Source: Tetracentron sinense (Eukaryota; Streptophyta; Magnoliopsida; Trochodendrales; Trochodendraceae). Taken from it: a stretch of 64,000 nt of DNA. Shown here piece by piece: positions 1-64,000 of this stretch (the first letter of the stretch is position 1; each line of letters begins with the position of its first letter). The notes below the pieces were generated by a model. That model made no database searches, was not told the DNA's origin, and saw only the letters and a program-made list of their open reading frames with translations. A program made the position numbers and the translations under genes. Where the stretch lies: NCBI GenBank assembly GCA_015143295.1, contig CM026556.1, positions 18,290,547-18,354,546 of the forward strand, read 5' to 3'.

Positions 1-720
1 CCTGAAATGAGACCAGTTAAACAAAAACTGAGATGGATGAGGCCCGAATGGTCACAGAAAGTCAAAGAGGAGGTAGAGAAGCAGATCAAAGCAGGCTTAC
101 TGGTAGTAGCAACCTATCCTGAGTGGTTAGCCAACATTGTGCCGGTACCCAAGAAGGATGGAAAAGTCTGAATGTGTTTCGACTACCATAAGTTGAACAA
201 GGCGAGCCCTAAAGACAACTTCTCTCTCCCGCACATCGACATCCTGGTCGACAACACAGCAGAGCATGAGACGCTCTTATTTATGGATGGTTTCTCCAGA
301 TACAACCACATCAGAATGGCAGAAGAAGACATGGAGAAAACATCCTTTATCACACCTTGGGGAACGTTCTGCTACAAGGTAATGCCCTTCGGACTCAAGC
401 ATACAGGGAAAACCTATCAGAGGGCCATAACAGCACTCTTCCATGACATGTTCCAAAAGTCACCTGAAGTTTATGTGGATGACATGATCGTTAAATCACC
501 TACCGCCAGGTAGCACCCTGAAGACTTAAAGAAACTATGTGACAAACTCAGAAAATTCGACCTAAGACTGAATCCCAACTGTGTCTTTAGAGCAGCATTA
601 GGAAAGTTCCTTAGCTCAATAGTTAGTAAAAGAGGCATCGAGATCGATCCAGCTAAAGCCAGAGCTATCATCAAAATGCCTGAACCCCAAACTGAAAAGG
701 AAATCCGTAGGCTCCTGGTT
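1..720 (+). pseudogene. pol: Ogre-like reverse transcriptase, fossil
   Basis: Decayed RT domain. Translated pieces show the RT start (PVPKKDG near 150), the DYHKLNKASPKDNF block just after 178, the MPFGLK block near 385 and the catalytic YVDD motif around 470-485. These are the usual blocks of a Ty3/gypsy RT, which copies element RNA into DNA in virus-like particles. The protease and gag that should precede it lie beyond the window edge. The domain is broken and reads in pieces. The minus-strand copy at 30872-31500 and copy B at 53894-54630 have the same block order. The family call is firm; function is not expected. Confidence 0.88.
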
Positions 721-739
721 AGAATTTAGTACATCAGTT

Positions 740-1280
740 GATTCATCTCTCTGCTCACTCCGATATACGAGTCAATCTTCAAGCTTCTCTAAAAGAATGT
801 ATCTACAGTCTGGACCGACAAGTGTCAGGAAGCCTTTCACAGAATAAAGCAGTATCTTCTCTATCCTCTAGTACCTATGCCTCTTATACTGGGATGGCCA
901 CTACTACTCTACATCTTAGTACAAGAAACCTCCATGGGGTGCGTCTTGGCACAACATGATGAGACAGATAGAATAGAGCAAGTCATCTACTACATTAGTA
1001 AGTGCCTGCTAGAGTATGAAAAAAGGTACAGTCCACTCGAGAAAACTTGTCTTGCACTGGTCTGGGCTACTCAGTGACTACGGCACTATCTGCTTTCTTA
1101 CCCGACAATCCTGATCTCCCTGATGGACCCACTCAAGTACCTGTTAGAAAGGCCAGCCACTACCGGGAGGACCACCCGATGACTTATGATGTTATCTGAA
1201 TATATAACTCAGAAATCAATCAAGGAGCAGACAATTACAGATCATTTGGCCCACAGTCCGACACAAGATTATGGTTCAGT
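740..1280 (+). pseudogene. pol: Ogre-like RNase H domain, fossil
   Basis: Remnant of the ordinary gypsy RNase H that follows RT and degrades the RNA strand of the RNA-DNA hybrid. Recognisable strings are YISKCLLEYEKRYSPLEK near 990-1045 and the LALVWATQ block just after it, matching the same place in the better-preserved minus-strand copy (30305-30871). It is heavily broken. Its position between RT and the second RNase H is what a Tat-group element should show. Confidence 0.8.
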
Positions 1281-1289
1281 ATATGATTA

Positions 1290-1750
1290 ATTCCCAGATG
1301 AAGCCATCCTGTATGCAGAGTTTGAAGAGCAAGAATACCTCGGTTGGAAGTTATATTTTGTCGAAGCCGCTAACAATCATGGACATGGGGCAGGAGCAGT
1401 CCTAATCTCTCCTAAGGGAGCCCACCTCCTCATCTCAGTCAAGCTGAAATTCAGATGTTCAAACAACGAAGCATAGTATGAGGTATGCATAGCCAGACTG
1501 AAAGGAGCCCTCGGCATCGGGATTGAAGAGACAGACGTCTACGGTGACTCATCTTTGGTAATTTGTCAGTGAAATGAAGCTTGGGCCATCCAAGAAGCTA
1601 GGCTAGTCCCGTACCTGGCCTATCTCAATGTACTGATCACTCAGTTCAGAAGAATCTACTTCAATCATAGGTCCAGGAACCACAACATATTTGCCAATGC
1701 ACTGGCCACCCTTGCCTCCATGGTATAGATTCCTAGGGGTATCATGCTCT
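1290..1750 (+). pseudogene. pol: second (archaeal-type) RNase H of Tat group, fossil
   Basis: Remnant of the additional RNase H that marks the plant Tat/Ogre/Retand group of Ty3/gypsy elements. Recognisable pieces are GAGAVLISPKG near 1390, the DVYGDSSLVI block near 1535-1565 and EARLVPYLAYLN near 1595-1630, followed by the FNHRSRN block near 1660. The same blocks are open for longer on the minus strand at 29499-30252. In this family the extra domain is thought to add to or take over RNase H function. This copy is broken. Confidence 0.82.
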
Positions 1751-1929
1751 GGCCAATCGAGATTCAACAATAGGATCAGCTTGCTTACTGCCTTGTGATA
1801 GAAGAGGTATCAGACAATAAGCCTTGGTACGCAGACATCAAGCAGTATCTCTAGGACGGGACCTTCCCACTTGATGCCACCAAAACAGACTACTGGGCAA
1901 TCAGAAAACTGGCTATTCAGTTTGTCCTT

Positions 1930-3060
1930 TATGGGGGAATCTTGTACAAGAGATCACCAAACCTAATTTGGCTCAGATGCCTCAACAATTGTAAAGCTGA
2001 ACAGGTAGTTGAAGAAATTCACGGAGGAGCTTGCGGCCCACACATGAACGGGTTAATGCTGTCTAAGAAGATACTCAGATTGGGCTACTACTGGTTTACA
2101 ATAGAATCTGACTGTTGCCAGTATGTATAGAAATGCCACCATTGCTAAATCTATGCCAATAGGATCAATGCACCGCTAACCAGGCTGCACAATCTCACGC
2201 TTCATGGTCATTCTCAGCTTGGGGCATCGACGTCATTGGGCCTATAGCCCCGAAAGCATCAAACGGACATCGATTCATTCTGGTAGTGATCGATTATTTC
2301 AGAAAATGGGTCGAGGCAGCCTCTTATGCCAACGTCACAACATTTGTGGTTCAGCGCTTTCTAAAAAAGGACATCATTTGCCGATACAGTGTCCCATTTG
2401 AGATTGTAACAGACAATGCTCTCAATTTCTGCAACAAAGGGATGACAGATCTTAGCAAAAAGTTTAAGATACAGTATCACAATTCCACGCCATACAGTCC
2501 ACAGACCAATGGTGTAGTTGAAGCCGCCAACAAGAACATAAAGAAGATTATAGAAAAGATGGCAACCAATTACTCTGCCTGGTATAAGATGCTCTCATAT
2601 GCACTCTTGGCTTACAGAACGTCCATCCGAACCTCAACTAGGGCAGCACCATTCTCTTTGGCTTATGGTATAGAAGTGGCCCTCCCTATCGAAGTAGAAA
2701 TTCCGTCACTCCGGGTGTTAATGGAAGCAGAAATCTCAAAGATAGAGTGGGCACAAACCAGATATGAACAGCTGAATTTGATAGAAGAGAGGCGACTGAA
2801 AGCCATCAACCACTCGGAAGCCTACCAGAGGCGCATGACTAGGGCATTCCACAAGAAAGTCAAACCCCGGTGCATCAAAGTCGGATGACCTAGTTCTCTG
2901 AAAAATGTTGCCAAACCGCCCTGACCCAAGGGACAAGTTCACACTTAACTATGAAGGCCCATACATTGTCTAAGACAAATTCTCCGGTGGCGCCCTTTGA
3001 CTCGGACGTATGGATGACAAAAATCACCCAGAGCTCGTCAACATGGACAAGGTCAAATGA
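1930..3060 (+). pseudogene. pol: Ogre-like integrase, fossil
   Basis: Integrase region that would insert the element copy into the host genome. A zinc-binding-like stretch lies near 1940-2160, and the core is readable at 2286-2888 (200 residues). The core shows FEIVTDNALNF with one catalytic Asp, and STPYSPQTNGVVEAANK with the last catalytic Glu, which is the usual DD35E spacing region. The C-terminal part carries the RYEQLNLIEERRLKAI helix common in plant Tat integrases. Fragments are well preserved but the gene as a whole is broken. Copy B at 55783-56960 is nearly identical over the core. Confidence 0.9.
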
Positions 3061-4821
3061 TACTACACTTAGGGTCTAGATTAGATAGGTGCTTTACACT
3101 CGTAGATTCTTCGGGAAATGACAGGAGGCCATCCTTGGTACACTCCTTATCCCCAACAATGTAAACCATTTTCAAATCAGTGAAATCCGCTAGTTAGCCC
3201 CTTGAGCCTAACAACCTTTCTTTCAAAAAAACCTTTTTAGGGACATCTTCCCTTATCATCTATGGTACAAGCCTGAACTATGTCATGACCTGATCCTGTA
3301 AAGGGTATGTCGGTAACCTGACAATCAGGTGCGGTCACTAAAGGGATCCAGATATCTCCTAAACCATCCCCAAGTGGAGTCCAAACCTCTCCAAAGTCTC
3401 CCCACAGAGCGAAACTTTCCCCAAATAAAGGCAAGACCTTCCCAATTTCCCTGACCGAGATAATTCTCAAGGTTACAAAATTTTCATAAAAGGAAAACCC
3501 AAAATAGAAGTTAAAACATCCTCAAAGACTCCCCACAGAGACAACCTCTCCAGACTCTTTCCCCGGTAGAAATCTTCAAGGACAATCTCTCCCGAAAAAC
3601 ACTCCCCCAAGCAGAGACAACCTCTCTCAAAAGCCCCCCAACAAAGTCAATCTCTCCCCAAGTCAGCCTTAATCAAAGAGGAAAATTCCCAAAAAAAAAT
3701 TTCTCCACCAAAAATCCCAAGGTACAAATCCCCAGGATAGTGTAAATCAATTGTAAGAGAAGAAATCGCAGGGTGTCCTAAACTTCAGTCCCCTAGCCTA
3801 CATTTCATTCCTCTCTAAGTCTTCCTAGATCCCCTAGAAACTATGAGTGTAAGTGCAGTATCACATCTACATCCCCAACGGAGCACAAATCGTCGACAAA
3901 GTGCCATGAAGGGAGAAGATCTACTTCCCTCAACAAATCGCGAGCATGAGTGAAAACTAGCAACAACCTCATTGCTTAAAAATCATGCGACCCTAGACCT
4001 AGTCTTGCAACTAGGGGCAAAAAAAGGACAAAAATCAACCAGCTTCGCAGGCATGAGGAAAACCGGCAACGGCCTCATTGCGTAAAAATTATGCGAATCC
4101 CATGACTTGGTCATTCCAAGGGTAAAAAAGGGAGAAAAACTGAAGAGCGGTTTGGCAACAAAATCTGGTAGCAATCAGTCTCACTGAATCCCTGATCATC
4201 CCAAGCAAATCCCACAAAGAAACAAACTCCCTAGCAGTGGTCTACAACAGAGTTCCACTCCCCAGCAAGTCCCCAGCAATGACCTACCACAATGTCACAT
4301 TCCCCAGTGGATCCTTAGGTCTACAATTGCTCTTTAGCAAGCTTCTCCCCAACCAGAGTCCCCAATCCCCCAGCAACAAGAAGACAAGCATGTCTACCTC
4401 CAAACATCCCTAGTAATGACGAAACCTCTTCTGGGTTATACTCCACTCTTCGAGAGTAAAAGACAGACTACAAAAATCCCCTAAGGCCTGACAAAGGTAA
4501 TTTCCTCACAAATCCAAAAGCTAGCTAAGCATTCTTTCTATCAAAATCAAAAACCTTTGCAAAAGTCCGCAACACTTTTCTAAAAATATTTTTCAAAACA
4601 GAACTTCTGGTACCGAGACCTGGTTGTACCAACCTGCATCAAGCAGCCCCAGCAAAAACAAGCAGAAGAAGCCGATATTGCGCATTACCAGCAATTCACA
4701 GTCAACAGACTCATGGGAAAGCATCCTCACCTTTACACCCTGCATGACATCATCAAAATCTAGTACCCCTAGGCCATTTCAAAAATCGATCCGGCTAGTG
4801 CCTCTTGGATATGCCACACCC
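3061..4821 (+). other. Ogre 3' non-coding region, C-rich
   Basis: No gene is visible in these 1.8 kb. The sequence is rich in C and A, with irregular returns of short words such as CTCCCCA, CCCCAGCAA and CAACCTCTC. It lies between the integrase end and the minisatellite and matches, on the other strand, 17947-19260 of the minus-strand Ogre copy. So it belongs to the element as its long 3' untranslated region. Small open frames here look like chance. Confidence 0.75.
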
Positions 4822-5084
4822 TTTTGATACCCCCGTGTGTCCTTGAAATCTTGTGTGCCCCTTGACAATCTAGTCATACCACAACATTACCTCCTACATG
4901 TCCCCAACATCTTGTGTATCTCTTAAAAATCTCATCATACCGCGATGCCTCCTGCATGTCCCCTTCGACACCCCTATGTCCTTGACATCCTGTGTGTCCC
5001 TTAACAATCTTGTCATATTGCAGTATTACCTCTTGCATGTCTCTGACATCCTATGTATCCCTTGACAATCTTGTCATACCGTGA
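4822..5084 (+). repeat. minisatellite in Ogre 3' region, left part
   Basis: Tandem array with a higher-order period of about 140 bp made of two related sub-units. Recurring words are CCTCCTGCATGTCCC, TTCGACACCCC, CTTGACATCCTGTGTG and AATCTCATCATACCGC. It is interrupted at 5085 by a solo copia LTR and resumes at 7259. Confidence 0.85.
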
Positions 5085-7258
5085 TGTTAGACATATATGC
5101 CGTCGAAAGCCATTCCGGTATTGTATTAGTGTACTTAATCAATAAAAGCATATTTTACGTTCACACATTGTCTTCTACATTGGGTAACACATTAAAAGTA
5201 TCTTATTGGATGAGACTACTTTGTCCCTGAGGTAACATTGTAGGAAAAACCATCCAATTGGTTAATGACTAATTGCTAAGGAGATATGGTTTTTCCGGTT
5301 CCTTGTAGACCTAAAATTGTTCTAAGTTATTCAGGATACATCTGGACAATGTATTCCTACTGACTTACACATTGTTAGTTCCATATGATGGAGTGCTGAA
5401 TCTCAATCACTAAGAGAAGGGTCTCTTGACTAAGATGTGGATATAAGTAAGAAGTACTTACATTGCAACTGGATCGCTCAGTGGATACCTTTAGAAATAT
5501 ACTGTCTTTATATTTAGGGTAGTCCATTTGACAGATTGTCCTTAACCTGAGAGGTTGACATCTTCTCTAGTATTTGCCTATATAGCTTTGATGTAGCCAA
5601 TTGTCAATGTCCAACACATCGGACTAAATATGGGGTCATTGGGTTATGTACGCTATATTAGAAGACGTTTGTGTACGCTCAACAAGGATTCCACTACTCT
5701 TACAGAGCAAATAATATTGAGTTGATACTTGTCAAAACCGGAATTAAAAAACCCAGCGCTGGTATTTATCGATGAAATGGTTTTATCGAGGAGTTTATTT
5801 TCTGTATGAAAGAAATGTAATTATTATTATTATTTCTTTTAAAGAATTTCTAAAATGTTTTGAAAGTCCAAGTTTGACTACAAGTATCAAAGAGAATGGG
5901 TTCTCAATATAAGCTAGGGATTAAAGACAGTATTAGATATTGTCCCGTAAGCTTATAACAATATTGGAAGTGGAGGGACGCATCTGTAAACAAATCTGGA
6001 GATAGAAATACCTGAAAGTAATTCTCTATTTTCTAGAAGTTAATCACATTTTGTTAATAGAAATTATTGTGATTGGTGGAAGTCCAGGGATATAGATAAA
6101 ATTCTATAATCCTAATAATGTATAGGAAAGGTGTTTCCTAGTAACAATGCTTTAACCGAAAGGTTGAGTACTTGGTCCCACAACCGGAAATAAGAGATCC
6201 CTTTAGATCCCACACACAAGGACTTTCTTAAAGTATTTAATTTAATTATTTATTAAATTAATTAATTTCTCTAAGTAATCACTATATGGTATAGTGAAGC
6301 TCCAAAAGGTGGAATCACATTAAATGTGAAAAACCAAACGGGTAGGACCGATTGGGGATTTTGATGGAAGATCAAAAATGATGACCAAAAGGGGTTTGGA
6401 ACCCTAGGGGCATGTGGAGTGGGGCCCACCTATGGTGGGACGCCCACTTCATGGAGGGTGCTTTAATAATTAGTTTCTGATTAACTATGGAGTCCTTATT
6501 AGATAAGGTTAGTTAGTTAGTTAGTTACTAATTAAAGATTCCCTATTTGTTAGGGATTCTAATAGTTTTTTGCTAATCAAGGAATCTTAATTGGATTAGG
6601 ATAAGGATATGGTTAGTTGGTTACTAATGGATAAGATTTGTTTCTATTAATGATTAATCCTAATTAATTAGGAAATATTAATAAAGGAAACAAATTGAGG
6701 AATCCTTATTGGATAAGGATTAAAAGACTTGGGTGGTAGGCAACCCAAGCAAAAGGGTTATAAATAGAGGTGGACGTCCACTATTGTGGAGACAATTAAA
6801 ATTTCTAGAATTTTAATCTCTCTCCCCTCTCGTCATAACCTCACGCCACTCTCTCTCTCTTCCCTAGAGTGTACGGTCACTCTTCTCCCCCTCTTTCTTC
6901 TCTTGTGTTCTTAGTATTGAATATCAAGAAGAAGATCGAGAAGGTCTTGATCAGTACAGATTGGATCTTTATTTCAAGATCCTAGAGCTAGAAATTTGGA
7001 AGGGCCATTAGCTTCCATTAGAGAAAGCTTTAATTAAAAAGAAGGTCCATGTGGATTGCGAAGGAGACTTGACACTTGTGAAGTTTTGCCGGTCTAGCCT
7101 TCTATCGTGCAATTGACTTAACAATTTCAAAGTCGCAAAGGTGATTGTGATTTTAACTTTCATTGAATAAAATCAATTAGAATCTTAGTCAGATCTTGGG
7201 ATTCGATGTATGCCCCCCAAGAATTGTTTTTCTAAAATTAAAAAGAGGTATACTTTCA
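5085..7258 (+). mobile_element. solo LTR, Ty1/copia-like, inside the minisatellite
   Basis: A 2174-bp unit starting TGTTAGACATATATGCC and ending GGTATACTTTCA. It is clearly related to the LTRs of the copia element at 20171-29498 (same ends, same CATTGTAGGAAAA block, same TATA region, same 3' tail). No internal region or second LTR flanks it, so it is a solo LTR, presumably left by LTR-LTR recombination. The target duplication is not clean (CGTGA on the left, TGGGA on the right). The minisatellite resumes on both sides in register. The same insertion is present at 59008-61181. Confidence 0.88.
6759..6766 (+). promoter_or_regulatory. TATA box of solo copia LTR
   Basis: TATAAATA, followed by a CT-rich stretch (6820-6900), at the same place as the TATA motifs of the other copia LTRs here. 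A likely LTR promoter by position only. Confidence 0.6.
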
Positions 7259-7600
7259 TGGGATACCTCCTGTATGTCCCATTCGACACCCCCATGTGTC
7301 CTTGACACCCTGTGTGCCCCTTAAAAATCTCATCATACCACGACATTACCTCCTGTATGTCCCTAACATCCTGTGTATCCCTTGACAATCTCGTCATACC
7401 GCAATACCTCCCACATGTCCCCTTCGACACCCCCGTGTGTCCCCGGCATCCTGTGTGCTCCTTGACAATCTCATCATACTGCGACATTACCTCTTACATG
7501 TCCCAAACATCCTACTTGTACCTTGACAACTCATTTGTCATACCACTACACTTCCTGCATGTCCTCCTTCCAACACTTCGCGTGTCCTTCGGTTGTTTTG
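7259..7600 (+). repeat. minisatellite in Ogre 3' region, right part
   Basis: Continuation of the array cut by the solo LTR. The TTCGACACCCC word recurs at about 7282 and 7423, giving a period near 141 bp. Open frames of about 100 codons on both strands come from the repeat and are not genes. Confidence 0.85.
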
Positions 7601-7863
7601 GCTAAACACCTCTGGGTAATGCCATAGCAACCAATTTGGCTAGCGCATCCGGGACATGCCGTCTTTCATAGGATCCATCAATTCCTAGCACGAGCAGACC
7701 GGACTACTTACTAGTCCCCTGTGAGTAGTCCTAACCACTTCATCACCCTACCACTTGCACAACATGCATACATATCATCATCCAATCTTGGTGTAAAAAT
7801 AGGATGATTCCAGTCTTTGCTGTTCAATTGCCAACTTGACAGTCTCCGGCAAAGAGGAGTAGC
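7601..7863 (+). other. end of Ogre internal region with polypurine-like tract
   Basis: Non-coding remainder of the 3' untranslated region. A purine-rich stretch (GGCAAAGAGGAGTAG, about 7848-7862) lies directly before the LTR start TGTAAGCACC, where a plus-strand primer tract should be. Confidence 0.65.
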
Positions 7864-7904
7864 TGTAAGCACCTAATTTTTACACCTCCTTCTTGGTCAT
7901 GGTT

Positions 7905-8086
7905 AAAATCCTAACCCTAGGTAAACCCTAGTCAAACCCTAGGTAAACCCTAGTCAAACCTTAGGCCTAACCCTAGGAGAAACCCTAACCCCAGGTAAAT
8001 CCTAATCAAACCCTAGGTAAACCCTAGGCTTAACCCTAGTTAAACCCTAGGCCTAATCCTAGATAAACCCTAAGCCTAACCCTAGT
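7905..8086 (+). repeat. AAACCCTAGG-type short repeats in Ogre U3
   Basis: About a dozen degenerate returns of an 11-bp word close to AAACCCTAGGT or AAACCCTAGTC. It resembles the plant telomere heptamer but the spacing is 10-11 bp, so it is not telomeric sequence. The related minus-strand LTR shows a looser version at 42600-42790. Confidence 0.75.
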
Positions 8087-8216
8087 GTCACGTGCGTATG
8101 TTTAGTCCCACACCAGCCATGTACTGGGTGTTCCAGGCCATTGGTGTGGGAGTAGGCAGCATCTGAATTGGCTAGTCACTTCGGTTGGCAAGCGCTCCGT
8201 GACACTAGGGTTAGGC
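8074..8216. repeat. foldback with perfect 19-bp arms near the Ogre promoter
   Basis: Arms 8074-8092 (GCCTAACCCTAGTGTCACG) and 8198-8216 are exact reverse complements around a 105-bp loop. The loop itself holds a 10-bp inverted pair (TCCCACACCA and TGGTGTGGGA). It lies about 140 bp upstream of the TATA box. Confidence 0.8.
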
Positions 8217-8353
8217 AGCATCTGAGTTTCTACCGCCATTCCTGGTGTCTTCTTCCAGGGCTTGCTGGCACCCCCTGGACCACTCCTCTCTGCCTCCCTA
8301 CTGTCTTACACTCTCCCAACAACCCCTAAACTACCCCTGGGTTCATCAAATCC

Positions 8354-8360
8354 TATAAAA
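8354..8360 (+). promoter_or_regulatory. TATA box of Ogre-like LTR (copy A)
   Basis: TATAAAA followed by a C run and a CT-rich leader; the same motif is at 62277-62283 in copy B and, on the other strand, at 39985-39991 in the minus copy. Confidence 0.65.
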
Positions 8361-8976
8361 CCCCCCCTCTCTTCATGGTTAAGCCATTCCAAAAACCCTA
8401 CATGAAATCTCTGCTAGAGCTCTGTGCAACCCAAAACCATTTCTGTCCTCAGTCCAGAACACCTAAAGGAGAACCCTAGAGCCCTAGGGAGCTGCCTCTG
8501 CACCACCTCAGCCCTCTCCCCTTGCATTACCACCGTGTACAGCCTCCTCCGACGAGCCAACAGGGTAGGACCCCCTACCCCCTCTCTTTCTTTCTGTAAA
8601 AGCACTGTAAGACCCCTAGTCCTACTCCAGGGGTCCTCTATTTTCATTTTATTCATGTTGTAGTACTGTAACAAGGGATAGGGGTCCTCCTTGTCTCTTC
8701 GTAGGCATGGGGGAACCCCCTTGAGGTTAAAAGTTCGGCTATAGTGGCCACCTCGTGTATGGCATACACCCCTTGATTTTTGAGGGACCCTCAGTCCATT
8801 AGGGATCCCTTAGAAGTGGTCAGGACCTACCCCAGGGAGTAGATTTTTAGTGCCTAGAAAAATGACAGAATGGCTGTAAACTCAGTACTGCCATTCTGGG
8901 TACTCTCCATTGTAGCATCTGTAGATCTCTTTTGAGTGGGCCCTAATCCTTTCCAGAGCCATGGTTAGATTCCTAG

Positions 8977-11172
8977 TGTTAGACATGATGCCCAGAAAAG
9001 TCATTTAGATTGTTAGATTCTTTTTAATTTGATTAATAAAGACTTCTTCTTTATCTATTGTGTATTCATTATGGGTAATTGACCATGATCATGAGATGAT
9101 CTATACGATATGAGATATCGATAAAGGTCCTTAGGATATATTATAGGAAAGTTATGTGATTGGATTATCGTAGACATATATAACTTTCCAGTTTCTTATA
9201 CCTTTTATAGTCACAACTATGGGTGAAGCTGGGCTCTTCACTTATATGGCTGCCACTATGCTAAGATGTTCTCAATAGTTAAGATGTAGTTCTATCTCAA
9301 ACTATTGTAGTGGAGACTACACATCAACATATGGGTGCTTAAATGTTCACTGATTGATTGCATTCAATGAGAGACCTCTTGCATAAACATACTATCAGAT
9401 AGTTGGTCTCTCATTCACATTGAATAGTTTCAATGATCCTTAGATCTGATGAGATCATTTATAATTGAACAGTAATCTGACTGTTTTGATTCCATCAAAG
9501 TATTCTCTACCTTAGGGAATACGATACAGTGACAGTTGGATAGTCAGAAAGTTGTTCGAGTCATAATGAATTCCAAACAAGAAATCCATACTCATTAATT
9601 TGAGAGATTATCCAAGTTCCGGGTAAGACAGTCGATTAAGCTTAAATCCTATGCAGGTGATTTTGAAACAAAATAAGTTTGAAATATATTTTATTTAAAA
9701 TATATTATACTTGTAAAAATATTTTTCTCAAAATGTTTTTCATGAGAAATTTTTTCTCATGGCTTAATCAAAAGTCTTGGAAACCCGAATTATGTGCAAT
9801 GGGCTATGAGTTAGATAGTATAAATAATCTCAAAGACCCATTAGGGATAATGTAATCGGAAGGATCAATTGAATTAAAAAGTTCATTTGGCAGGATCCAT
9901 ATTGGTTAATGTTCTTACACTGGGATTCAATTGCAACATGGATATCTCACGTCACTAGCAATTCCGATGTAATTCCTATTTAGGGTCAATGGGATAACAT
10001 TGGATAAGCCAGGGTTTGAATGTCCCAGAGACATTTGTGGAGATGCTCACATAAGAAATACAAGCTCATAAATTGATTAAAAGTTAGTCAATTATGTAAA
10101 AATGATTAAATGTTAATTACTAATTAAATAGATTAAAAGTTAATCTATGGTTTAAATTAATTGTTAATTTAAATTAGAGGATTATTTTAGTAATTATTTA
10201 ATTAACCTAATTAAAGGGGAAATGGGTTTGACCCATATCCATAAACCCATTAAGAATGGACCTTTAATATGGGCCCAAGCCCATGGATTATAAAACCCAT
10301 GAATGGGGCGCCCACTTTAGTAATCCTAGTTGGATTAAGATTTGGTTACTTGAATAATAATTCTTTTAATTATGGAATTAAATTATAATGGTTGGAATGC
10401 AAGTAGGATTAAGATGAGTTGTAATTGGATTACAACTAGGAGTTTTAACTCCCCTATAGCTCACGCCCCCTTTGGAAAAATCCTAATTAGATTAGGATTG
10501 GTTGATTGTTGACTAATCCCTTTAATTAAGGAATCCCTTTTGGAAAAGGACTCTTTAATTAGTATGATTATTATAACTAAAGTAGTTATAATTAAACTAG
10601 GATTTATTTAAATTAATAATAAGAGTTATTATTAATAAATAACTCCTAAAGGGATAAGTTGTAGTTGGAGTAGGATTTGGATTTGATCCAATCTATAAAT
10701 ACCCCAACATCCAAAACATTTGGAATAGAATTCTCATTATTTTCTCCAGAATTTTTTCTCTCCCTCTCCTCCTCTCCAAAACCGTGAGCCCATAGGGTAT
10801 TTCCTAGGGATTTTTGTGAGCTACAAGGCAGCACCCAAGTTGGGTTTTTCGATTCAAGGGTTTTGAACCCTAGGGTTTTCAGTGACAGAAAGTCTACACC
10901 ATTACTCCATTTTCTTCCTCTTGCTTTATCAATTCCAAAGAGAGATTCTAAAGCTTCGTGGGGATAGCGAAGAACAAGGATCGAGCTTCGAGTATTTCTT
11001 CGAGAAATCTCTACAAATAGTTCTGACGGTTCGAGTGGATTTAGCTTCACTGGTGAACATCTTTCACCGAGGTAATATGACTAAAACGAGTAGATAATTT
11101 TAGTTGCTTTCTATGGTGTAAAGATCATCGGGATCCAATTTCCGCATAAATTTTTATCCGGATCCCCCTACA
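8977..11172 (+). mobile_element. 5' LTR of a second Ty1/copia-like family
   Basis: A 2196-bp LTR beginning TGTTAGACATGATGCC and ending GGATCCCCCTACA, directly followed by a primer site. It shares its opening word and general plan with the LTRs at 5085 and 20171 but is too different to be the same family. It sits inside the Ogre LTR of copy A. Only the 5' LTR and 331 bp of interior are visible before a chromovirus interrupts it. The same LTR starts at 62895 in copy B. Confidence 0.82.
10694..10701 (+). promoter_or_regulatory. TATA box of second copia-like LTR
   Basis: TATAAATA followed by CCCC and a CT-rich stretch (10730-10790), the position expected for the LTR promoter. Confidence 0.6.
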
Positions 11173-11503: not shown

Positions 11504-12200
11504 TGTCACGCCCCAAAATACCCCCTAGGAGTTAAGGGATACTTTAGAGGTGACTACGTGTACCTGTCAAACCATCCTGTAATGCAAGAGGCTAAACATA
11601 ATATAATTCAATGAAAATCAGAGCGCGGAAACTAAACATAAGTGCGGAAGCGTAAGCCAACTTTTCTTTTCTTCTATAACTCCAATTAGTATTCCAAGTT
11701 AACATATACCAAATACAATCAAAGTAAAGGTGGACATGCCCACCTATCAAAATACAAAAGGAACTCTCTAATCCTCTCCTCTCAACAGTAGTCGAGGTAT
11801 GGCCACACATCCAAGTCCCCATCCTCCTGAGACTGCCATGGGATAGGTGGCTCCCTCTCCTCTACATACTCCTCCTCGACCCAAGGCTCGGGGTCGAGGA
11901 CATCCACAGTACCTGCCGACATAAAAGTACGGCTGAGCATGGAATACTCAGCGAGTACAAACTACTAGCTAACCATAACAATAGCGAAAGCATAACAACA
12001 GTGAGCAATACAAGATATTAATTTAAAGCAATAGTGAAAGCATAAGATACATAGCCATATCTTGACATGCGTGTATGAATGCAAAAACCTCGGTAAAACT
12101 CATGTCTCGGAAACCCTTTTCGTGTCTCGGTCAAATCATGTATGTGTATCGTGTCTTGTCTTGTATTTCATGTCTTGATTTGTTCTTGACTTGTATACTT

Positions 12201-12614
12201 GTGAGCCAGAGGCTAGCACCCTTCCTTGGGCTACCAACCTCCTTGTCATGTTCTTGTTCCATTTCTCTTGTGAGCCAGAGGCTAGCACCCTTCCTGGGGC
12301 TACCAACCTCCTTGTCATGTTCTTGTTTCATTTCACTTGTGAGCCAGAGGCTAGCACCCTTCCTTGGGCTACCAACCTCCTTGTCATGTTCTTGTTTCAT
12401 TTCTCTTGTGAGCCAGAGGCTAGCACCCTTCCTTGGGCTACCAACCTCCTTGTCATGTTCTCTCTTGCAATTCACTTGTGAGCCAGAGGCTAGCACCCTT
12501 CCTTGGGCTACCAACCTCCTTGTCATGTTCTTGTTCCGTTTCTCTTGTGAGCCAGAGGCTAGCACCCTTCCTTGGGCTACCAACCTCCTTGTCATGTTCT
12601 TGATTCATTTCATA
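12201..12614. repeat. 69-bp tandem array inside chromovirus I LTR
   Basis: Six copies begin with GTGAGCCAGAGG at 12201, 12270, 12339, 12408, 12478 and 12547, so the period is 69 bp with one 70-bp step. Because 69 is a multiple of three, reading frames stay open on both strands and give false repetitive proteins (201 and 154 codons). Confidence 0.95.
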
Positions 12615-13988: not shown

Positions 13989-14085
13989 ACAAAAATTTCG
14001 TCCTCGAAATTTGGACAATGCGTGCTTTACAATTTAAACAACTTAGCATAACAATTTGAAATAAAATTACAAGTCATACATAAAA

Positions 14086-51478: not shown

Positions 51479-51718
51479 GATCGCTGACTGGACCGAGCGA
51501 TCGGTGCTCTTGTAGGTCTGGACTGTTTTGACCATATCTTTTGACTCGCTCGTCGGATTTCGACGATTCAACTTGCGTTGGATCCGTCTTTCGAAAACGA
51601 ACATTCCTGACGTTTCAGAATTTCCGATTTCTCCCTTATTTATTAATTAGACTACAAAAACGTCCAATTAGCTACAAAGGTGCTATTCATTAAGGATGAG
51701 AAAGTCCGGGGTGCTACA
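51479..51718 (-). mobile_element. 5' LTR of chromovirus II, outer 240 bp
   Basis: Identical base for base to 46678-46917 and followed by the target duplication TCTCT. Confidence 0.95.
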
Positions 51719-53893: not shown

Positions 53894-54640
53894 CCTGAAA
53901 TGAGACCAGTTAAAACAAAAACAACTGAGATGGATGAGGCCCCGAATGAATGTCACAGAAAAGTCAAAGAGGAGGTAGAGAAGAGATCAAAGCAGGCTTA
54001 CTGGTAGTAGCAACCTATCTGAGTCGGTTAGCAACATTGTGCCGGTACCCAAGAAGGATGGCAAAGTCTGAGGTGTATCGACTACCATAAGTTGAAACAA
54101 GGCGAGCCCTAAAGACAATTCTCTCTCCGCCATCGGACATCCTGGTCGACAACACAGCAGAGAATGCGAGCTCTTATTATGGATGGTTTCTCCAGATACA
54201 ACCACATCAAAATGGCAGAAGAAGACATGGAGAAGGGAACCTCCTTTATCACACCTGGGGAACGTTCTGCTACAAGGTAATGCCCTTCGGACTCAAGCAT
54301 ACAGGGAAAACCTATCAGAGGGCCATAACAGCACTCTTCCATGACATGTTCCAAAAGTCACCTGAAGTTTATGTGGATGACATGATCGTTGAAATCACCT
54401 ACCGCCAGGTAGCACCCTGAAGACTTAAAGAAACTATGTGACAAAATCAGAAAATTCGCACCTAAGACTGAATCCAACTGTGTCTTGGAGCAACAGTTAG
54501 GAAAGTCCTTAGCTCAATAGTTAGTAAAAGAGGCATCGAGATCGATCCAGCTAAAGCCAGAGCTATCATCAAAAATGCTGACACCCCAAAACTGAAAAGG
54601 AAATCCGTAGGTCATGGTTAGAATTAGTATCATCAATCGC
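53894..54640 (+). pseudogene. pol: reverse transcriptase of Ogre copy B, fossil
   Basis: Counterpart of 1-720. The same blocks are visible: PVPKKDGKV near 54045, the MPFGLK block near 54280 and YVDDMI near 54370. It differs from copy A mainly by many one- to three-base length changes rather than substitutions, and is broken very often. Identity to copy A is otherwise high. Confidence 0.85.
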
Positions 54641-55640
54641 TTCATCTCTCTGCTCACTCCGATATACGAGTCAATCTTCAAGCTTACTCAAAAGAAGTAT
54701 CTACAGTCTGGACCGACAAGTGTCAGGGAAGGCTTACAGAATAAAAGCAGTATCTTCTCTTCCTCTAGGACCTATGCCTCTTATACTGGATGGCCACTAA
54801 GACTCTACATCTTAGTACAAGAAACCTCCATGGGGTGGTCTTGGCACAACATGATGAGACAGATAGAATAGAGCAAGTCATCTACTACATTAATAAGTGC
54901 CTGCTAGAGTATGAAAAAATACGGTACAGTCCACTCGAGGAGGGAAAACTTGTCTTGCACTGGTCTGGGGCTACTCAGGTGAATACGCACTATCTGCTTT
55001 CTCCCACCCGACAATCATGATCTCCTGATGGACCCACTCAAGTAAATGTTAGAAAGGCCAGCCACATACGGGAGGACACCGATGACTTATGATGTTATGG
55101 AATAGATAACTCAGAAATCAATCAAGGAGCAGACAATTACAGATCATTTGGCCCACAATCCGACACAGATTATGGTTCGTTTTATGATCTGTTAATTCCA
55201 GATGAAGCCATCCATGTATGCAGAGGTTTGAAGAGCAAGAAATCCTCGTTGGAAGTTTATTTTGGACGAAGCCGCTAACAAATCATGGCATGGGGCAGGA
55301 GCAGTCCTAATCTATCCTAAGGGAAGCCCACTCTCATCATCTTCAGTCAACGCTGAAATCAGCAAACAAACAACGAAGATAGTATGGGTATGCATAGCCA
55401 GACTGAAAAGGAGCCCTCGGGCATTGGGATTGAAGAGACAGACGTCTACGGTGACTCATCTTTGGTTAATTTGTCAGTGAAAATGAAGCTTGGGCCATCC
55501 AACAAGAAGCTAGGCTAGGTCCGTACCTGGCCTATCTCATGGTACTGATCACTCAGTTCAGAAGAATCTACTTCAGTCATAGGTCCAGGAACCACAACAT
55601 ATTTGCCAATTGCATGGCCACCCTTGCCTCCATGGTATAG
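54641..55640 (+). pseudogene. pol: RNase H and second RNase H of Ogre copy B, fossil
   Basis: Counterpart of 720-1740. LHLSTRNLHG.V..QHDETDRIEQVIYYI traces mark the first RNase H (54790-54960). GAGAVLIYPKGSP near 55297-55335 and the DVYGDSSLV region near 55440 mark the second. It is broken very often by small length changes. Confidence 0.8.
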
Positions 55641-56970
55641 ATTCCTAGGGGTATCATGCTCTGGCCAATCGAGATTCAACAATAGGATAAGCTTGCTTAT
55701 TGCCTTGTGATAGAAGAGGTATCAGACAATAAGCCTTGGTACGCAGACACTCAAGCAGTATCTCTAGGACGGGACTTCCCCATTGATGCCACCAAAACAG
55801 ACTACTGGGCAATCAGAAAACTGGCTCTATTCAGTTTGTCCTTTATGGGGGAATCTTGTCAAGAGATCACCAAACCTAATTTGGCTCAGATGCCTCAACA
55901 ATTGTAAAGCTGAACAGGTAGTTGAAGAAATTCACGGAGGAGCTTGCGGCCCACACATGAATGGGTTAAGCTGTTTTGGTCAAGAAGATACTCAGATTGG
56001 GCTACTACTGGTTACAATAGAATCTGACTGTTGCCAGTATGTATAGAAATGCCACATTGCTAAATCTATGCCAATAGGATCAATGCACCGCTAACCAGGC
56101 TGCACAATCTCACGCTTCTGGTCATTCTCAGCTTGGGGCATCGACGTCTTGGGCCTATAGCCCCGAAAGCATCAAATGGACATCGATTCATTCTGGTAGT
56201 GATCGATTATTTCAGGAAATGGGTCGAGGCAGCCTCTTATGCCAACGTCACAACATTTGTGGTTCAGCGCTTTCTAAAAAAGGACATCATTTGCCGATAC
56301 AGTGTCCCATTTGAGATTGTAACAGACAATGCTCTCAATTTCTGCAACAAAGGGATGACAGATCTTAGCAAAAAGTTTAAGATACAGTATCACAATTCCA
56401 CGCCATACAGTCCACAGACCAATGGTGTAGTTGAAGCCGCCAACAAGAACATAAAGAAGATTATAGAAAAGATGGCAACCAATTACTCTGCCTGGTATAA
56501 GATGCTCTCATATGCACTCTTGGCTTACAGAACGTCCATCCGAACCTCAACTAGGGCAGCACCATTCTCTTTGGCTTATGGTATAGAAGTGGCCCTCCCT
56601 ATCGAAGTAGAAATTCCGTCACTCCGGGTGTTAATGGAAGCAGAAATCTCAAAGATAGAGTGGGCACAAACCAGATATGAACAGCTGAATTTGATAGAAG
56701 AGAGGCGACTGAAAGCCATCAACCACTCGAAAGCCTACCAGAGGCGCATGACTAGGGCATTCCACAAGAAAGTCAAACCCCGGTGCATCAAAGTCGGGTG
56801 ACCTAGTTCTCTGGAAAATGTTACCAAACCGCCCTGACCCAAGGGACAAGTTCACACTTAACTATGAAGGCCCATACATTGTCTAAGACAAATTCTCCGG
56901 TGGCGCCCTTTGACTGGGACGTATGGATGACAAAAATCACCCAGAGCTCGTCAACATGGACAAGGTCAAA
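55641..56970 (+). pseudogene. pol: integrase of Ogre copy B, fossil
   Basis: Counterpart of 1745-3060. The zinc-like stretch lies near 55850-56070; the core and C-terminal part form a 222-residue open frame at 56133-56801 with FEIVTDNALNF, SPQTNGVVEAANK and RYEQLNLIEERRLKAI. From about 56150 onward the sequence is almost identical to copy A and differs by rare substitutions. It is broken as a whole. Confidence 0.9.
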
Positions 56971-58744
56971 TGATACTACACTTAGGGTCTAGATTAGATA
57001 GGTGCTTTACACTCGTAGATTCTTCAGGAAATGACAGGAGGCCATCCTTGGTACACTCCTTATCCCCAACAATGTAAACCATTTTCAAATCAGTGAAATC
57101 CGCTAGTTAGCCCCTTGAGCCTAACAACCTTTCTTTCAAAAAAACCTTTTTAGGGACATCTTCCCTTATCATCTATGGTACAAGCCTGAACTATGTCATG
57201 ACCTGATCCTGTAAAGGGTACGTCGGTAACCTGACAATCAGGTGCGGTCACTAAAGGGATCCAGATATCTCCTAAACCATCCCCAAGTGGAGTCCAAACC
57301 TCTCCAAAGTCTCCCCACAGAGCGAAACTTTCCCCAAATAAAGGCAAGACCTTCCCAATTTCCCTGACCGAGATAATTCTCAAGGTTACAAAATTTTCAT
57401 AAAAGGAAAACCCAAAATAGAAGTTAAAACATCCTCAAAGACTCCCCACAGAGACAACCTCTCCAGACTCTTTCCCCGGTAGAAATCTTCAAGGACAATC
57501 TCTCCCGAAAAACACTCCCCCAAGCAGAGACAACCTCTCTCGAAAGCCCCCCAACAAAGTCAATCTCTCCCCAAGTCAGCCTTAATCAAAGAGGAAAATT
57601 CCCAAAAAAAAATTTCTCCACCAAAAATCCCAAGGTACAAATCCCCAGGAGAGTGTAAATCAATTGTAAGAGAAGAAATCGCAGGGTGTCCTAAACTTCA
57701 GTCCCCTAACCTACATTTCATTCCTCTCTAAGTCTTCCTAGATCCCCTAGAAACTATGAGTGTAAGTGCAGTATCACATCTACATCCCCAACGGAGCACA
57801 AATCTTCGACAAAGTGCCATTCAGGGCCATGAAGGGAGAAGATCTACTTCCCTCAACAAATCGCGAGCATGAGTGAAAACTAGCAACAACCTCATTGCTT
57901 AAAAATCATGCGACCCTAGACCTAGTCTTGCAACTAGGGGCAAAAAAAGGACAAAAATCAACCAGCTTCGCAGGCATGAGGAAAACCGGCAACGGCCTCA
58001 TTGCGTAAAAATTATGCGAATCCCATGACTTGGTCATTCCAAGGGTAAAAAAGGGAGAAAAACTGAAGAGCGGTTTGGCAACAAAATCTGGTAGTAATCA
58101 GTCTCACTGAATCCCTGATCATCCCAAGCAAATCCCACAAAGAAACAAACTCCCTAGCAGTGGTCTACAACAGAGTTCCACTCCCCAGCAAGTCCCCAGC
58201 AATGACCAACCACAATGTCACATTCCCCAGTGGATCCTCAGGTCTACAATTGCTCTTTAGCAAGCTTCTCCCCAACCAGAGTCCCCAATCCCCCAGCAAC
58301 AAGAAGACAAGCATGTCTACCTCCAAACATCCCTAGTAATGACGAAACCTCTTCTGGGTTATACTCCACTCTTCGAGAGTAAAAGACAGACTACAAAAAT
58401 CCCCTAAGGCCTGACAAAAGTAATTTCCTGACAAATCCAAAAGCTAGCTAAGCATTCTTTCTATCAAAATAAAAAACCTTTGCAAAAGTCCGCAACACTT
58501 TTCTAAAAATATTTTTCAAAACAGAACTTCTGGTACCGAGACCTGGTTGTACCAACCTGCATTAAGCAGCCCCAGCAAAAACAAGCAGAAGAAGCCGATA
58601 TTGCGCATTACCAGCAATTCACAGTCAACAGACTCATGGGAAAGCATCCTCACCTTTACACCCTGTATGACATCATCAAAATCTAGTACCCCTAGGCCAT
58701 TTCAAAAATCGATCCGGCTAGTGCCTCTTGGATATGCCACACCC
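56971..58744 (+). other. Ogre copy B 3' non-coding region, C-rich
   Basis: No gene seen. Counterpart of 3061-4821, with a 10-bp length difference near 57820 and rare substitutions. Confidence 0.75.
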
Positions 58745-59007
58745 TTTTGATACCCCCGTGTGTCCTTGAAATCTTGTGTGCCCCTTGACAATCTAGTCAT
58801 ACCACAACATTACCTCCTACATGTCCCCAACATCTTGTGTATCCCTTAAAAATCTCATCATACCGTGATGCCTCCTGCATGTCCCCTTCGACACCCCTAT
58901 GTCCTTGACATCCTGTGTGTCCCTTAACAATCTTGTCATATTGCGGTATTACCTCTTGCATGTCTCTGACATCCTATGTATCCCTTGACAATCTTGTCAT
59001 ACCGTGA
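58745..59007 (+). repeat. minisatellite in Ogre copy B 3' region, left part
   Basis: Counterpart of 4822-5084, period about 140 bp. Confidence 0.85.
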
Positions 59008-61181
59008 TGTTAGACATATATGCCGTCGAAAGCCATTCCGGTATTGTATTAGTGTACTTAATCAATAAAAGCATATTTTACATTCACACATTGTCTTCGA
59101 CATTGGGTAACACATTAAAAGTATCTTATTGGATGAGACTACTTTGTCCCTGAGGTAACATTGTAGGAAAAACCATCCAATTGGTTAATGACTAATTGCT
59201 AAGGAGATATGGTTTTTCCGGTTCCTTGTAGACCTAAAATTGTTCTAAGTTATTCAGGATACATCTGGACAATGTATTCCTACTGACTTACACATTGTTA
59301 GTTCCATATGATGGAGTGCTGAATCTCAATCACTAAGAGAAGGGTCTCTTGACTAAGATGTGGATATAAGTAAGAAGTACTTACATTGCAACTGGATCGC
59401 TCAGTGGATACCTTTAGAAATATACTGTCTTTATATTTAGGGTAGTCCATTTGACAGATTGTCCTTAACCTGAGAGGTTGACATCTTCTCTAGTATTTGC
59501 CTATATAGCTTTGATGTAGCCAATTGTCAATGTCCAACACATCGGACTAAATATGGGCTCATTGGGTTATGTACGCTATATTAGAAGACGTTTGTGTACG
59601 CTCAACAAGGATTCCACTACTCTTACAGAGCAAATAATATTGAGTTGATACTTGTCAAAACCGGACTTAAAAAACCCAGCGCTGGTATTTATCGATGAAA
59701 TGGTTTTATCGAGGAGTTTATTTTCTGTATGAAAGAAATGTAATTATTATTATTATTTCTTTTAAAGAATTTCTAAAATGTTTTGAAAGTCCAAGTTTGA
59801 TTACAAGTATCAAAGAGAATGGGTTCTCAATATAAGCTAGGGATTAAAGACAGTATTAGATATTGTCCCGTAAGCTTATAACAATATTGGAAGTGGAGGG
59901 ACGCATCTGTAAACAAATCTTGAGATAGAAATACCTGAAAGTAATTCTCTATTTTCTAGAAGTTAATCACATTTTGTTAATAGAAATTATTGTGATTGGT
60001 GGAAGTCCAGGGATATAGATAAAATTCTATAATCCTAATGGAGTATAGGAAAGGTGTTTCCTAGTAACAATGCTTTAACCGAAAGGTTGAGTACTTGGTC
60101 CCACAACAGGAAATAAGAGATCCCTTTAGATCCCACACACAAGGACTTTCTTAAAATATTTAATTTAATTATTTATTAAATTAATTAATTTCTCTAAGTA
60201 ATCACTATATGGTATAGTGAAGCTCCAAAAGGTGGAATCACATTAAATGTGAAAAACCAAACGAGTAGGACCGATTGGGGATTTTGATGGAAGATCAAAA
60301 ATGATGACCAAAAGGGGTTTGGAACCCTAGGGGCATGTGGAGTGGGGCCCACCTATGGTGGGACGCCCACTTCATGGAGGGTGCTTTAATAATTAGTTTC
60401 TGATTAACTATGGAGTCCTTATTAGATAAGGTTAGTTAGTTAGTTAGTTACTAATTAAAGATTCCCTATTTGTTAGGGATTCTAATAGTTTTTTGCTAAT
60501 CAAGGAATCTTAATTGGATTAGGATAAGGATATGGTTAGTTGGTTACTAATGGATAAGATTTGTTTCTATTAATGATTAATCCTAATTAATTAGGAAATA
60601 TTAATAAAGGAAACAAATTGAGGAATCCTTATTGGATAAGGATTAAAAGACTTGGGTGGTAGGCAACCCAAGCAAAAGGGTTATAAATAGAGGTGGACGT
60701 CCACTATTGTGGAGACAATTAAAATTTCTAGAATTTTAATCTCTCTCCCCTCTCGTCATAACCTCACGCCACTCTCTCTCTCTTCCCTAGAGTGTACGGT
60801 CACTCTTCTCCCCCTCTTTCTTCTCTTGTGTTCTTAGTATTGAATATCAAGAAGAAGATCGAGAAGGTCTTGATCAATAAAGATTGGATCTTTATTTCAA
60901 GATCCTAGAGCTAGAAATTTGGAAGGGCCATTAGCTTCCATTAGAGAAAGCTTTAATTAAAAAGAAGGTCCATGTGGATTGCGAAGGAGACTTGACACTT
61001 GTGAAGTTTTGCCGGTCTAGCCTTCTATCGTGCAATTGACTTAACAATTTCAAAGTCGCAAAGGTGATTGTGATTTTAACTTTCATTGAATAAAATCAAT
61101 TAGAATCTTAGTCAGATCTTGGGATTCGATGTATGCCCCCCAAGAATTGTTTTTCTAAAATTAAAAAGAGGTATACTTTCA
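59008..61181 (+). mobile_element. solo copia LTR in Ogre copy B
   Basis: 2174 bp, same length, ends and flanks as 5085-7258. It is the same insertion event, not an independent one. TATA box TATAAATA at 60682-60689. Confidence 0.9.
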
Positions 61182-61523
61182 TGGGATACCTCCTGTATGT
61201 CCCATTCGACACCCCCATGTGTCCTTGACACCCTGTGTGCCCCTTAAAAATCTCATCATACCACGACATTACCTCCTGTATGTCCCTAACATCCTGTGTA
61301 TCCCTTGACAATCTCGTCATACCGCAATACCTCCCACATGTCCCCTTCGACACCCCCGTGTGTCCCCGACATCCTGTGTGCTCCTTGACAATCTCATCAT
61401 ACTGCGACATTACCTCTTACATGTCCCAAACATCCTACTTGTACCTTGACAACTCATTTGTCATACCACTACACTTCCTGCATGTCCTCCTTCCAACACT
61501 TCACGTGTCCTTCGGTTGTTTTG
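61182..61523 (+). repeat. minisatellite in Ogre copy B 3' region, right part
   Basis: Counterpart of 7259-7600; the array resumes after the solo LTR. Open frames of about 100 codons here are repeat-derived. Confidence 0.85.
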
Positions 61524-61786
61524 GCTAAACACCTCTGGGTAATGCCATAGCAACCAATTTGGTTAGCGCATCCGGGACATGCCGTCTTTCATAGGATCCA
61601 TCAATTCCTAGCACGAGCAGACCGGACTACTTACTAGTCCCCTGTGAGTAGTCCTAACCACTTCATCACCCTACCACTTGCACAACATGCATACATATCA
61701 TCATCCAATCTTGGTGTAAAAATAGGATGATTCCAGTCTTTGCTGTTCAATTGCCAACTTGACAGTCTCCGGCAAAGAGGGGTAGC
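61524..61786 (+). other. end of Ogre copy B interior
   Basis: Non-coding counterpart of 7601-7863, ending in the purine-rich stretch GGCAAAGAGGGGTAG before the LTR. Confidence 0.65.
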
Positions 61787-62894
61787 TGTAAGCACCTAAT
61801 TTTTACACCTCCTTCTTGGTCATGGTTAAAATCCTAACCCTAGGTAAACCCTAGTCAAACCCTAGGTAAACCCTAGTCAAACCTTAGGCCTAACCCTAGG
61901 AGAAACCCTAACCCCAGGTAAATCCTAATCAAACCCTAGGTAAACCCTAGGCTTAACCCTAGTTAAACCCTAGGCCTAATCCTAGTTAAACCCTAAGCCT
62001 AACCCTAGTGTCACGTGCGTATGTTTAGTCCCACACCAGCCATGTACTGGGTGTTCCAGGCCATTGGTGTGGGAGTAGGCAGCATCTGAATTGGCTAGTC
62101 ACTTCGGTTGGCAAGCGCTCCGTGACACTAGGGTTAGGCAGCATCTGAGTTTCTACCGCCATTCCTGGTGTCTTCTTCCAGGGCTTGCTGGCACCCCCTG
62201 GACCACTCCTCTCTGCCTCCCTACTGTCTTACACTCTCCCAACAACCCCTAAACTACCCCTGGGTCCATCAAATCCTATAAAACCCCCCCTCTCTTCATG
62301 GTTAAGCCATTCCAAAAACCCTACATGAAATCTCTGCTAGAGCTCTGTGCAACCCAAAACCATTTCTGTCCTCAGTCCAGAACACCTAAAGGAGAACCCT
62401 AGAGCCCTAGGGAGCTGCCTCTGCACCACCTCAGCCCTCTCCCCTTGCATTACCACCGTGTACAGCCTCCTCCGACGAGCCAACAGGGTAGGACCCCCTA
62501 CCCCCTCTCTTTCTTTCTGTAAAAGTAAGACCCCTAGTCCTACTCCAGGGGTCCTCTATTTTCATTTTATTCATGTTGTAGTACTGTAACAAGGGATAGG
62601 GGTCCTCCTTGTCTCTTCGTAGGCATGGGGGAACCCCCTTGAGGTTAAAAGTTCGGCTATAGTGGCCACCTCGTGTATGGCATACACCCCTTGATTTTTG
62701 AGGGACCCTCAGTCCATTAGGGATCCCTTAGAAGTGGTCAGGACCTACCCCAGGGAGTAGATTTTTAGTGCCTAGAAAAATGACAGAATGGCTATAAACT
62801 CAGTACTGCCATTCTGGGTACTCTCCATTGTAGCATCTGTAGATCTCTTTTGAGTGGGCCCTAATCCTTTCCAGAGCCATGGTTAGATTCCTAG
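61787..62894 (+). mobile_element. Ogre-like 3' LTR, 5' portion (copy B)
   Basis: Counterpart of 7864-8976, starting TGTAAGCACC, with the AAACCCTAGG repeats (about 61828-62009), the foldback with 19-bp arms (about 61997-62139) and a TATA box at 62277-62283. A 5-bp length difference from copy A lies near 62525. Confidence 0.82.
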
Positions 62895-64000
62895 TGTTAG
62901 ACATGATGCCCAGAAAAGTCATTTAGATTGTTAGATTCTTTTTAATTTGATTAATAAAGACTTCTTCTTTATCTATTGTGTATTCATTATGGGTAATTGA
63001 CCATGATCATGTGATGATCTATACGATATGAGATATCGATAAAGGTCCTTAGGATATATTATAGGAAAGTTATGTGATTGGATTATCGTAGACATATATA
63101 ACTTTCCAGTTTCTTATACCTTTTATAGTCACAACTATGGGTGAAGCTGGGCTCTTCACTTATATGGCTGCCACTATGCTAAGATGTTCTCAATAGTTAA
63201 GATGTAGTTCTATCTCAAACTATTGTAGTGGAGACTACACATCAACATATGGGTGCTTAAATGTTCACTGATTGATTGCATTCAATGAGAGACCTCTTGC
63301 ATAAACATACTATCAGATAGTTGGTCTCTCATTCACATTGAACAGTTTCAATGATCCTTAGATCTGATGAGATCATTTATAATTGAACAGTAATCTGACT
63401 GTTTTGATTCCATCAAAGTATTCTCTACCTTAGGGAATACGATACAGTGACAGTTGGATAGTCAGAAAGTTGTTCGAGTCATAATGAATTCCAAACAAGA
63501 AATCCATACTCATTAATTTGAGAGATTATCCAAGTTCCGGGTAAGACAGTCGATTAAGCTTAAATCCTATGCAGGTGATTTTGAAACAAAATAAGTTTGA
63601 AATATATTTTATTTAAAATATATTATACTTATAAAAATATTTTTCTCAAAATGTTTTTCATGAGAAATTTTTTCTCATGGCTTAATCAAAAGTCTTGGAA
63701 ACCCGAATGATGTGCAATGGGCTATGAGTTAGATAGTATAAATAATCTCAAAGACCCATTAGGGATAATGTAATCGGAAGGATCAATTGAATTAAAAAGT
63801 TCATTTGGCAGGATCCATATTGGTTAATGTTCTTACACTGGGATTCAATTGCAACATGGATATCTCACGTCACTAGCAATTCCGATGTAATTCCTATTTA
63901 GGGTCAATGGGATAACATTGGATAAGCCAGGGTTTGAATGTCCCAGAGACATTTGTGGAGATGCTCACATAAGAAATACAAGCTCATAAATTGATTAAAA
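62895..64000 (+). mobile_element. second copia-like LTR, cut by window edge
   Basis: Counterpart of 8977-10082, beginning TGTTAGACATGATGCC. The window ends inside it. Confidence 0.88.

Follow-up and report, generated by a model that had tools for sequence, protein, structure and literature searches.

False duplications, heterotype as well as homotype, are among the described systems closest to the locus studied here. In the passages relevant to it, Kelley and Salzberg (2010, PMC2864568) state that two haplotype contigs can end up placed near each other, and Ko et al. (2022, PMC9516828) name, as marks of false duplication, gaps between pairs located on the same scaffold and depth gaps resulting from incorrect gap-filling or error-bearing reads; in the same passages of the latter paper, same-scaffold pairs constitute 7–24% of false duplications in three older assemblies and the majority in newer ones. 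Two further systems are of importance. Gap closing with raw long reads, as implemented in PBJelly and LR_Gapcloser, is described in a passage of PMC6324547 as the filling of gaps using uncorrected reads, and Ogre retrotransposons are known, from the corresponding sections of two papers, to have tandem repeats downstream of the coding region and ahead of the 3' LTR (PMC7004042; PMC3305785).

The window analyzed here is a stretch of 64,000 nt from Tetracentron sinense (assembly GCA_015143295.1, contig CM026556.1, positions 18,290,547 to 18,354,546 of the forward strand), the two ends of which, further referred to as copies A and B, are nearly identical (Table 1). Our best explanation, to which we assign about an even chance, is that one locus has been placed twice by a gapped draft assembly, either as two haplotypes or as under-collapsed contigs. 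The locus would represent the 3' portion of an Ogre-type retrotransposon (Ty3/gypsy, Tat) that has long been dead and contains nested LTR insertions. The piece 1–17846 would carry version A, and the piece 17947–64000, version B, the latter being completed by an apparent unpolished long-read fill at approximately 52.3–56.15 kb; both versions would have been placed next to each other, separated by a 100-N gap, whose real size is not given by the N count. Such an arrangement resembles false duplications, as far as these are outlined in the cited passages (PMC2864568; PMC9516828), in that a single scaffold holds two nearly identical copies, that gaps separate these (N runs at 17847–17946 and 51411–51478) and that one copy bears errors, with the candidate incorrect fill situated between the members of the pair. 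It differs from them in that the copies are nominally 54 kb apart, with other repeats in the interval, and in being known from the letters alone.

Table 1. Features of the 64,000-nt window (positions in the window; N gaps have no strand).
Feature	Coordinates	Strand	Remarks
Left copy A	1..10082	+	3' portion of Ogre pol, solo LTR within 3'UTR minisatellite, Ogre LTR start, nested LTR; from self-alignment
Solo LTR in 3'UTR minisatellite, copy A	5085..7258	+	Full-length profile match
Ogre LTR start, copy A, until nested LTR	7864..8976	+	Begins TGTAAGCACC; homologous to outer end of Ogre O 5' LTR (42816, minus strand)
Probable 5' LTR of second, diverged LTR element nested in Ogre LTR	8977..11172	+	Partial profile match at start
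el1, chromovirus-like, inserted in second LTR element (8977 on)	11504..17846	-	LTR 11504–13975; left target site TGATT
N gap, 100 N	17847..17946	.	Sole link of copy A to remaining sequence
Ogre O, independent Ogre-like element	17947..42816	-	Nested LTR element at 20171–29498
el4, part of chromovirus-like LTR in copy B's Ogre, near Ogre O 5' end	42886..43875	-	42886–43215 homologous to el2 LTR; end TTCTACA at 43875
el2, chromovirus-like, within copy B's Ogre	44506..51718	-	Perfect 5-bp target duplication TCTCT on both sides
N gap, 68 N, in el2 5' LTR region	51411..51478	.	Hidden length estimated from left versus right LTR length
Error-rich stretch, copy B's Ogre	52300..56149	+	One-sided changes versus O, Ts:Tv 66:98, broken frames
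Right copy B	53894..64000	+	Clipped by window end; from self-alignment
Same solo LTR, copy B	59008..61181	+	Profile match; displayed flanking bases identical to those of copy A
Copy B counterpart of the LTR at 8977..11172	62895 to beyond 64000	+	Partial profile match

Self-BLASTN of the window yields one same-strand alignment between 1–10082 and 53894–64000, with 97.7% identity over 10156 columns; the match is clipped by both window edges, so that its lengths are a minimum extent. Chance similarity is ruled out by 10 kb at such identity. Everything visible in the match belongs to one Ogre-type element and to insertions inside that element. The differences are distributed unevenly: from 2236 onward, there are 49 substitutions in 7842 columns (0.62%) and just two indels, of 10 and 5 bp, the longest perfect run being 612 bases, and 162 substitutions with 50 indel events fall into the 2206 columns of the region 1–2235. 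The step is abrupt, with the final indel at 2234 and the following substitution at 2264, and the ratio of transitions to transversions between the copies is 66:98 over A 1–2400 and 33:16 over A 2250–10082. Within the clean part, divergence further decreases from 0.88% (2236–6341) to 0.35% (6342–10082); this split was made post hoc and is not used below.

The original prediction had described the same-orientation match of the window ends, the rarity of differences past 2.2 kb together with the length changes of 10 and 5 bp, and LTRs nested in both copies at 5085–7258 and 59008–61181 and at 8977 and 62895. Our alignment agrees with the former two, and the nested LTRs are recovered by an LTR-family profile, which matches 5085–7258 and 59008–61181 in full length and gives partial matches starting at 8977 and 62895. 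The spacing of about 53.9 kb, also claimed there, follows from the match coordinates but is nominal, as the interval between the copies includes two N runs.

No PBS was found in the right flank of the solo LTR at 5085–7258, and its flanks, CGTGA and TGGGA, do not form a clean target duplication. The LTR starting at 8977 has a CTACA end at approximately 11172, followed by the PBS-like TGGTATCAAAGC; on this ground, we reject solo status for it and regard it as the probable 5' LTR of an element. The assignment of the nested LTR elements to copia, as in the original prediction, is presumptive, being based only on the look of the LTR ends, PBS and PPT. The one full-length relative, at 20171–29498, has no plus-strand open stretch longer than 107 aa in its interior and no credible Pfam match in the four pieces scanned, and a non-coding element is not amenable to classification in this way.

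The independent element Ogre O contains RT_RNaseH and a second RNase H (RVT_3) domains, as well as a DUF7745/PMD-like ORF at 36564–37280, a candidate for the extra ORF that Ogre/Tat elements have upstream of gag; the rve integrase domain was found in copy A. The second RNase H and the DUF7745 ORF are features that we take to be Ogre/Tat traits. Right after the N run, at 17947, the sequence begins inside the 3' region of O, with homology to copy A from 18127. In copy A, the coding region is followed by 141-bp tandem repeats at 7263–7529, which fits the position of tandem repeats reported for Ogre elements in the passages mentioned above (PMC7004042; PMC3305785). The likeness to the Tat lineage of Ty3/gypsy comprises these repeats past the coding region and, in O, the second RNase H and, as a candidate trait, the DUF7745 ORF; A and B differ in being dead elements with a solo LTR among the tandem repeats. 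All elements in the window are of known kinds, and nothing was seen outside them.

Ogre O, which is 71.8–80% identical to A and B in BLAST pieces, served as an outgroup for polarization of the changes between the copies. For A 1–2047 (B 53894–55960; 2002 columns), 119 substitutions are B-derived versus 22 A-derived, with 20 columns differing three ways, and 42 indels are assigned to the B side (19 insertions and 23 deletions, that is, approximately as many of the former as of the latter; 22 of the 23 deletions are of a single base) versus one indel on the A side. In A 2037–2532, spanning the step, six substitutions and five indels are on the B side versus two and none on the A side, and in the clean segment A 2644–3345, four substitutions are on the B side and none on the A side, two columns differ three ways, and neither copy has an indel. 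The deletions in B are not biased to homopolymers (11 out of 27 are within runs, with the baseline 0.43).

The reading frames were considered in a six-frame comparison with O. All top blocks of A are in frame 1, from 1 to 2046, and B produces short blocks in shifting frames. To the left, the frame of B is kept at 51730–51927, matched weakly at 51964–52212 (27.7% identity) and fragmented from 52341. On its left, the error-rich stretch has no sharp boundary, the edge being located somewhere at approximately 51.93–52.34 kb.

As the changes fall mostly on B (119 + 42 versus 22 + 1), the divergence between the copies in the first 2.2 kb most likely reflects poor sequence quality in the right-hand copy and not evolution, which the original prediction had overlooked. 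A different origin of the step, the edge of a gene-conversion tract between truly diverged paralogs, agrees with its sharpness, noted above, but the predominance of B-side changes, the near-equal counts of B insertions and deletions (19 and 23), the single-base size of almost all these deletions (22 of 23) and Ts:Tv of 66:98 in the diverged part leave it hardly any probability; we reject it on the B-sided changes and the Ts:Tv ratio. To judge from the error pattern and not from assembly records, the stretch of approximately 52.3–56.15 kb in B is probably an unpolished long-read gap fill. It resembles the outcome of raw long-read gap closing with PBJelly or LR_Gapcloser, in so far as a passage of PMC6324547 describes it, as an error-rich stretch between accurate ones, adjoining an N run, and differs in that its status as a fill comes from its errors.

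Copies A and B also share their decay. In A, the frame with the best match to O has 13 stops between 1 and 2046, and seven of them are the same codon in B; out of the remaining six, five correspond to a different codon in B and one to an alignment gap, all 13 being within the error-rich stretch of B. Within the clean sequence, both copies have the stop at 2886 that closes the open integrase frame; in the next frame, the stops at 2971 and 2998 are present in both, and the one at 2899 is specific to A (TGA; TGG in B). Two observations run counter to shared decay: the six early stops of A that B does not have as the same codon, and the A-specific stop at 2899.

The shared premature stops indicate that the common ancestor of A and B was already inactive. 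They point to copying at the DNA level rather than transposition, or equally to one locus seen twice, and argue against two insertions from a live master. In such a scenario, A and B would be independent retrotranspositions from one master Ogre in which both nested LTRs were already present. It agrees with the fact that all visible shared sequence is within the Ogre and its nested insertions, with shared host flank not shown, but the ancestor already had premature stops (seven of 13 shared before 2046, and the shared stop at 2886), and the element at 8977, apparently possessing a PBS, would be expected to interrupt the genomic transcript. We regard this scenario as very improbable, and sibling insertion of A and B is rejected on the shared premature stops. 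The argument of the original prediction, that shared nested insertions imply duplication of the whole locus, stands as regards descent by DNA-level copying, or one locus assembled twice, given the shared stops; the nested insertions are insufficient alone, as a live master with nested LTRs could in principle pass them on. True duplication and assembly artefact were rightly posed there as the alternatives, both of which predict the same letters.

The chromovirus-like elements characterize the joins. In el1 and el2, RT, RNase H and Integrase_H2C2 score above the curated cut-offs. Sub-threshold are Chromo, with 23.7 and 22.9 bits against a cut-off of 25.1, and rve, with 21.1 and 23.1 against 32.6. 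The 5' LTR of el1, expected to be approximately 2.47 kb long, is not seen before the N run at 17847; this run of 100 N looks like a placeholder and seems to hide this LTR and the 3' end of Ogre O, if both elements are complete. The left LTR of el2 (44506–46917) has 2412 bp, and of its right LTR only 240 bp are visible (51479–51718), positions 51479–51719 being identical to 46678–46918 in all 241 of 241 bases by self-BLASTN. If the el2 LTRs are equally long, the 68-N run seems to hide approximately 2.17 kb of LTR or more. Provided that the order is right and the elements are complete, the true spacing between A and B would be approximately 58 kb or more, and not 53.9. A tRNA scan of the window with the bacterial code found none.

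On each side, el2 is bordered by Ogre sequence, and the two flanks are homologous to parts of O that neighbour each other. Together with the TCTCT duplication, these flanks link copy B's Ogre in cis with the middle sequence across the 68-N run. The duplication thus disfavours a wholly wrong placement of copy B, and the doubtful join is that to copy A.

We favour the twice-placed locus because A and B are joined only via N runs and error-rich sequence, because one LTR of 2.47 kb or more sequence seems to be concealed by the 100-N run and approximately 2.17 kb by the 68-N run, and because copy B is entered through error-rich sequence with broken frames and deletions lacking homopolymer bias. The divergence of 0.62% with Ts:Tv of 33:16 is within the range of allelic differences.

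Several observations weigh on the other side. Nothing in the window marks A and B as alleles, gaps in LTRs occur in every draft assembly of repeats, and a recent duplication that is real would have the same appearance at 0.62%. By its TCTCT duplication, el2 shows that the Ogre of copy B and the middle sequence belong together. In the passage of PMC9516828 concerning three older assemblies, only 7–24% of false duplications are on one scaffold, although most are in the newer assemblies.

A true recent segmental duplication, perhaps in tandem, of the dead-Ogre locus is a possible, more tentative reading, with a unit of at least 10 kb and a spacing of approximately 58 kb or more when the missing LTRs are counted. 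The clean 7.8 kb with real-looking mutations (Ts:Tv 33:16, two multi-base indels), the dead-element stops common to A and B and the location of B in cis with the middle sequence are consistent with it, and the same orientation, shared nested insertions and 99.4% identity of the clean part are as generally known for recent segmental duplications in TE-rich plant DNA. It differs from those in that breakpoints and flanks are not visible in the window: in place of copied non-mobile flank bounded by breakpoints, the visible match consists of the Ogre and nested elements and extends into both window edges. Besides, A is joined to the remainder by a gap of nominal size.

An unlikely reading is an Ogre tandem of the form LTR–internal–LTR–internal–LTR, produced by unequal crossing-over between the two LTRs of one element, on sister or homologous chromatids, and later split by O, el1, el2 and el4. 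Copy A is indeed followed by an Ogre LTR (from 7864) and then, past nested elements and the gap, by the internal region of B in the same orientation, and the presence of the nested LTR in both Ogre LTRs would be explicable by a crossover beyond it. However, the 100-N gap would then have to contain both the remainder of the LTR of A and the 5' portion of the Ogre of B, and nothing shows a shared LTR. If true, such a tandem would mean that the internal region of one giant element was copied with its nested insertions and then split by four further insertions.

For the window itself, the absence of expected LTRs suggests, for both gaps, a true length far beyond the one shown, and the N-run lengths are unusable for spacing; window-only testing of the assembly reaches as far as one join, which the target-site duplication confirms. 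Neither a locus placed twice nor, less likely, an ordinary recent duplication would be surprising. The observations made here call for caution, as apparent long direct duplications in repeat-rich drafts can arise from twice-placed contigs and gap filling, and locally high “divergence” in drafts can likewise stem from gap filling.

The 5' LTR of Ogre O, an independent Ogre-like element, seems to be interrupted by a chromovirus-like LTR with its end at 42598. Tandem repeats with units of 69 and 68 bp occupy corresponding LTR sites in two chromovirus-like elements, and both telomere-like arrays are located shortly within the Ogre LTR start.

Coordinates of repeat features in the window
Feature	Position	Context	Internal matches
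Complete LTR element	20171-29498		
Tandem repeat, 69 bp unit	12198-12611	within chromovirus-like LTR	94%
Tandem repeat, 68 bp unit	45161-45699	within chromovirus-like LTR	87%
Telomere-like AAACCCTAGG array	7906-8085		
Telomere-like AAACCCTAGG array	61829-62009		
Ogre O 5' LTR, apparently in two pieces	42608-42816 + 39455-39994		

Within 2236-10082, differences between the left and right Ogre copies are sparser after 6341 (13 per 3736 columns) than before it (36 per 4106 columns), this split point being picked post hoc on data already seen.

In the complete LTR element, the two LTRs measure 2.19 kb each and match one another at 97.3%, while the interior spans 4.95 kb and contains no plus-strand open stretch exceeding 107 aa; the element resembles a large non-autonomous one.
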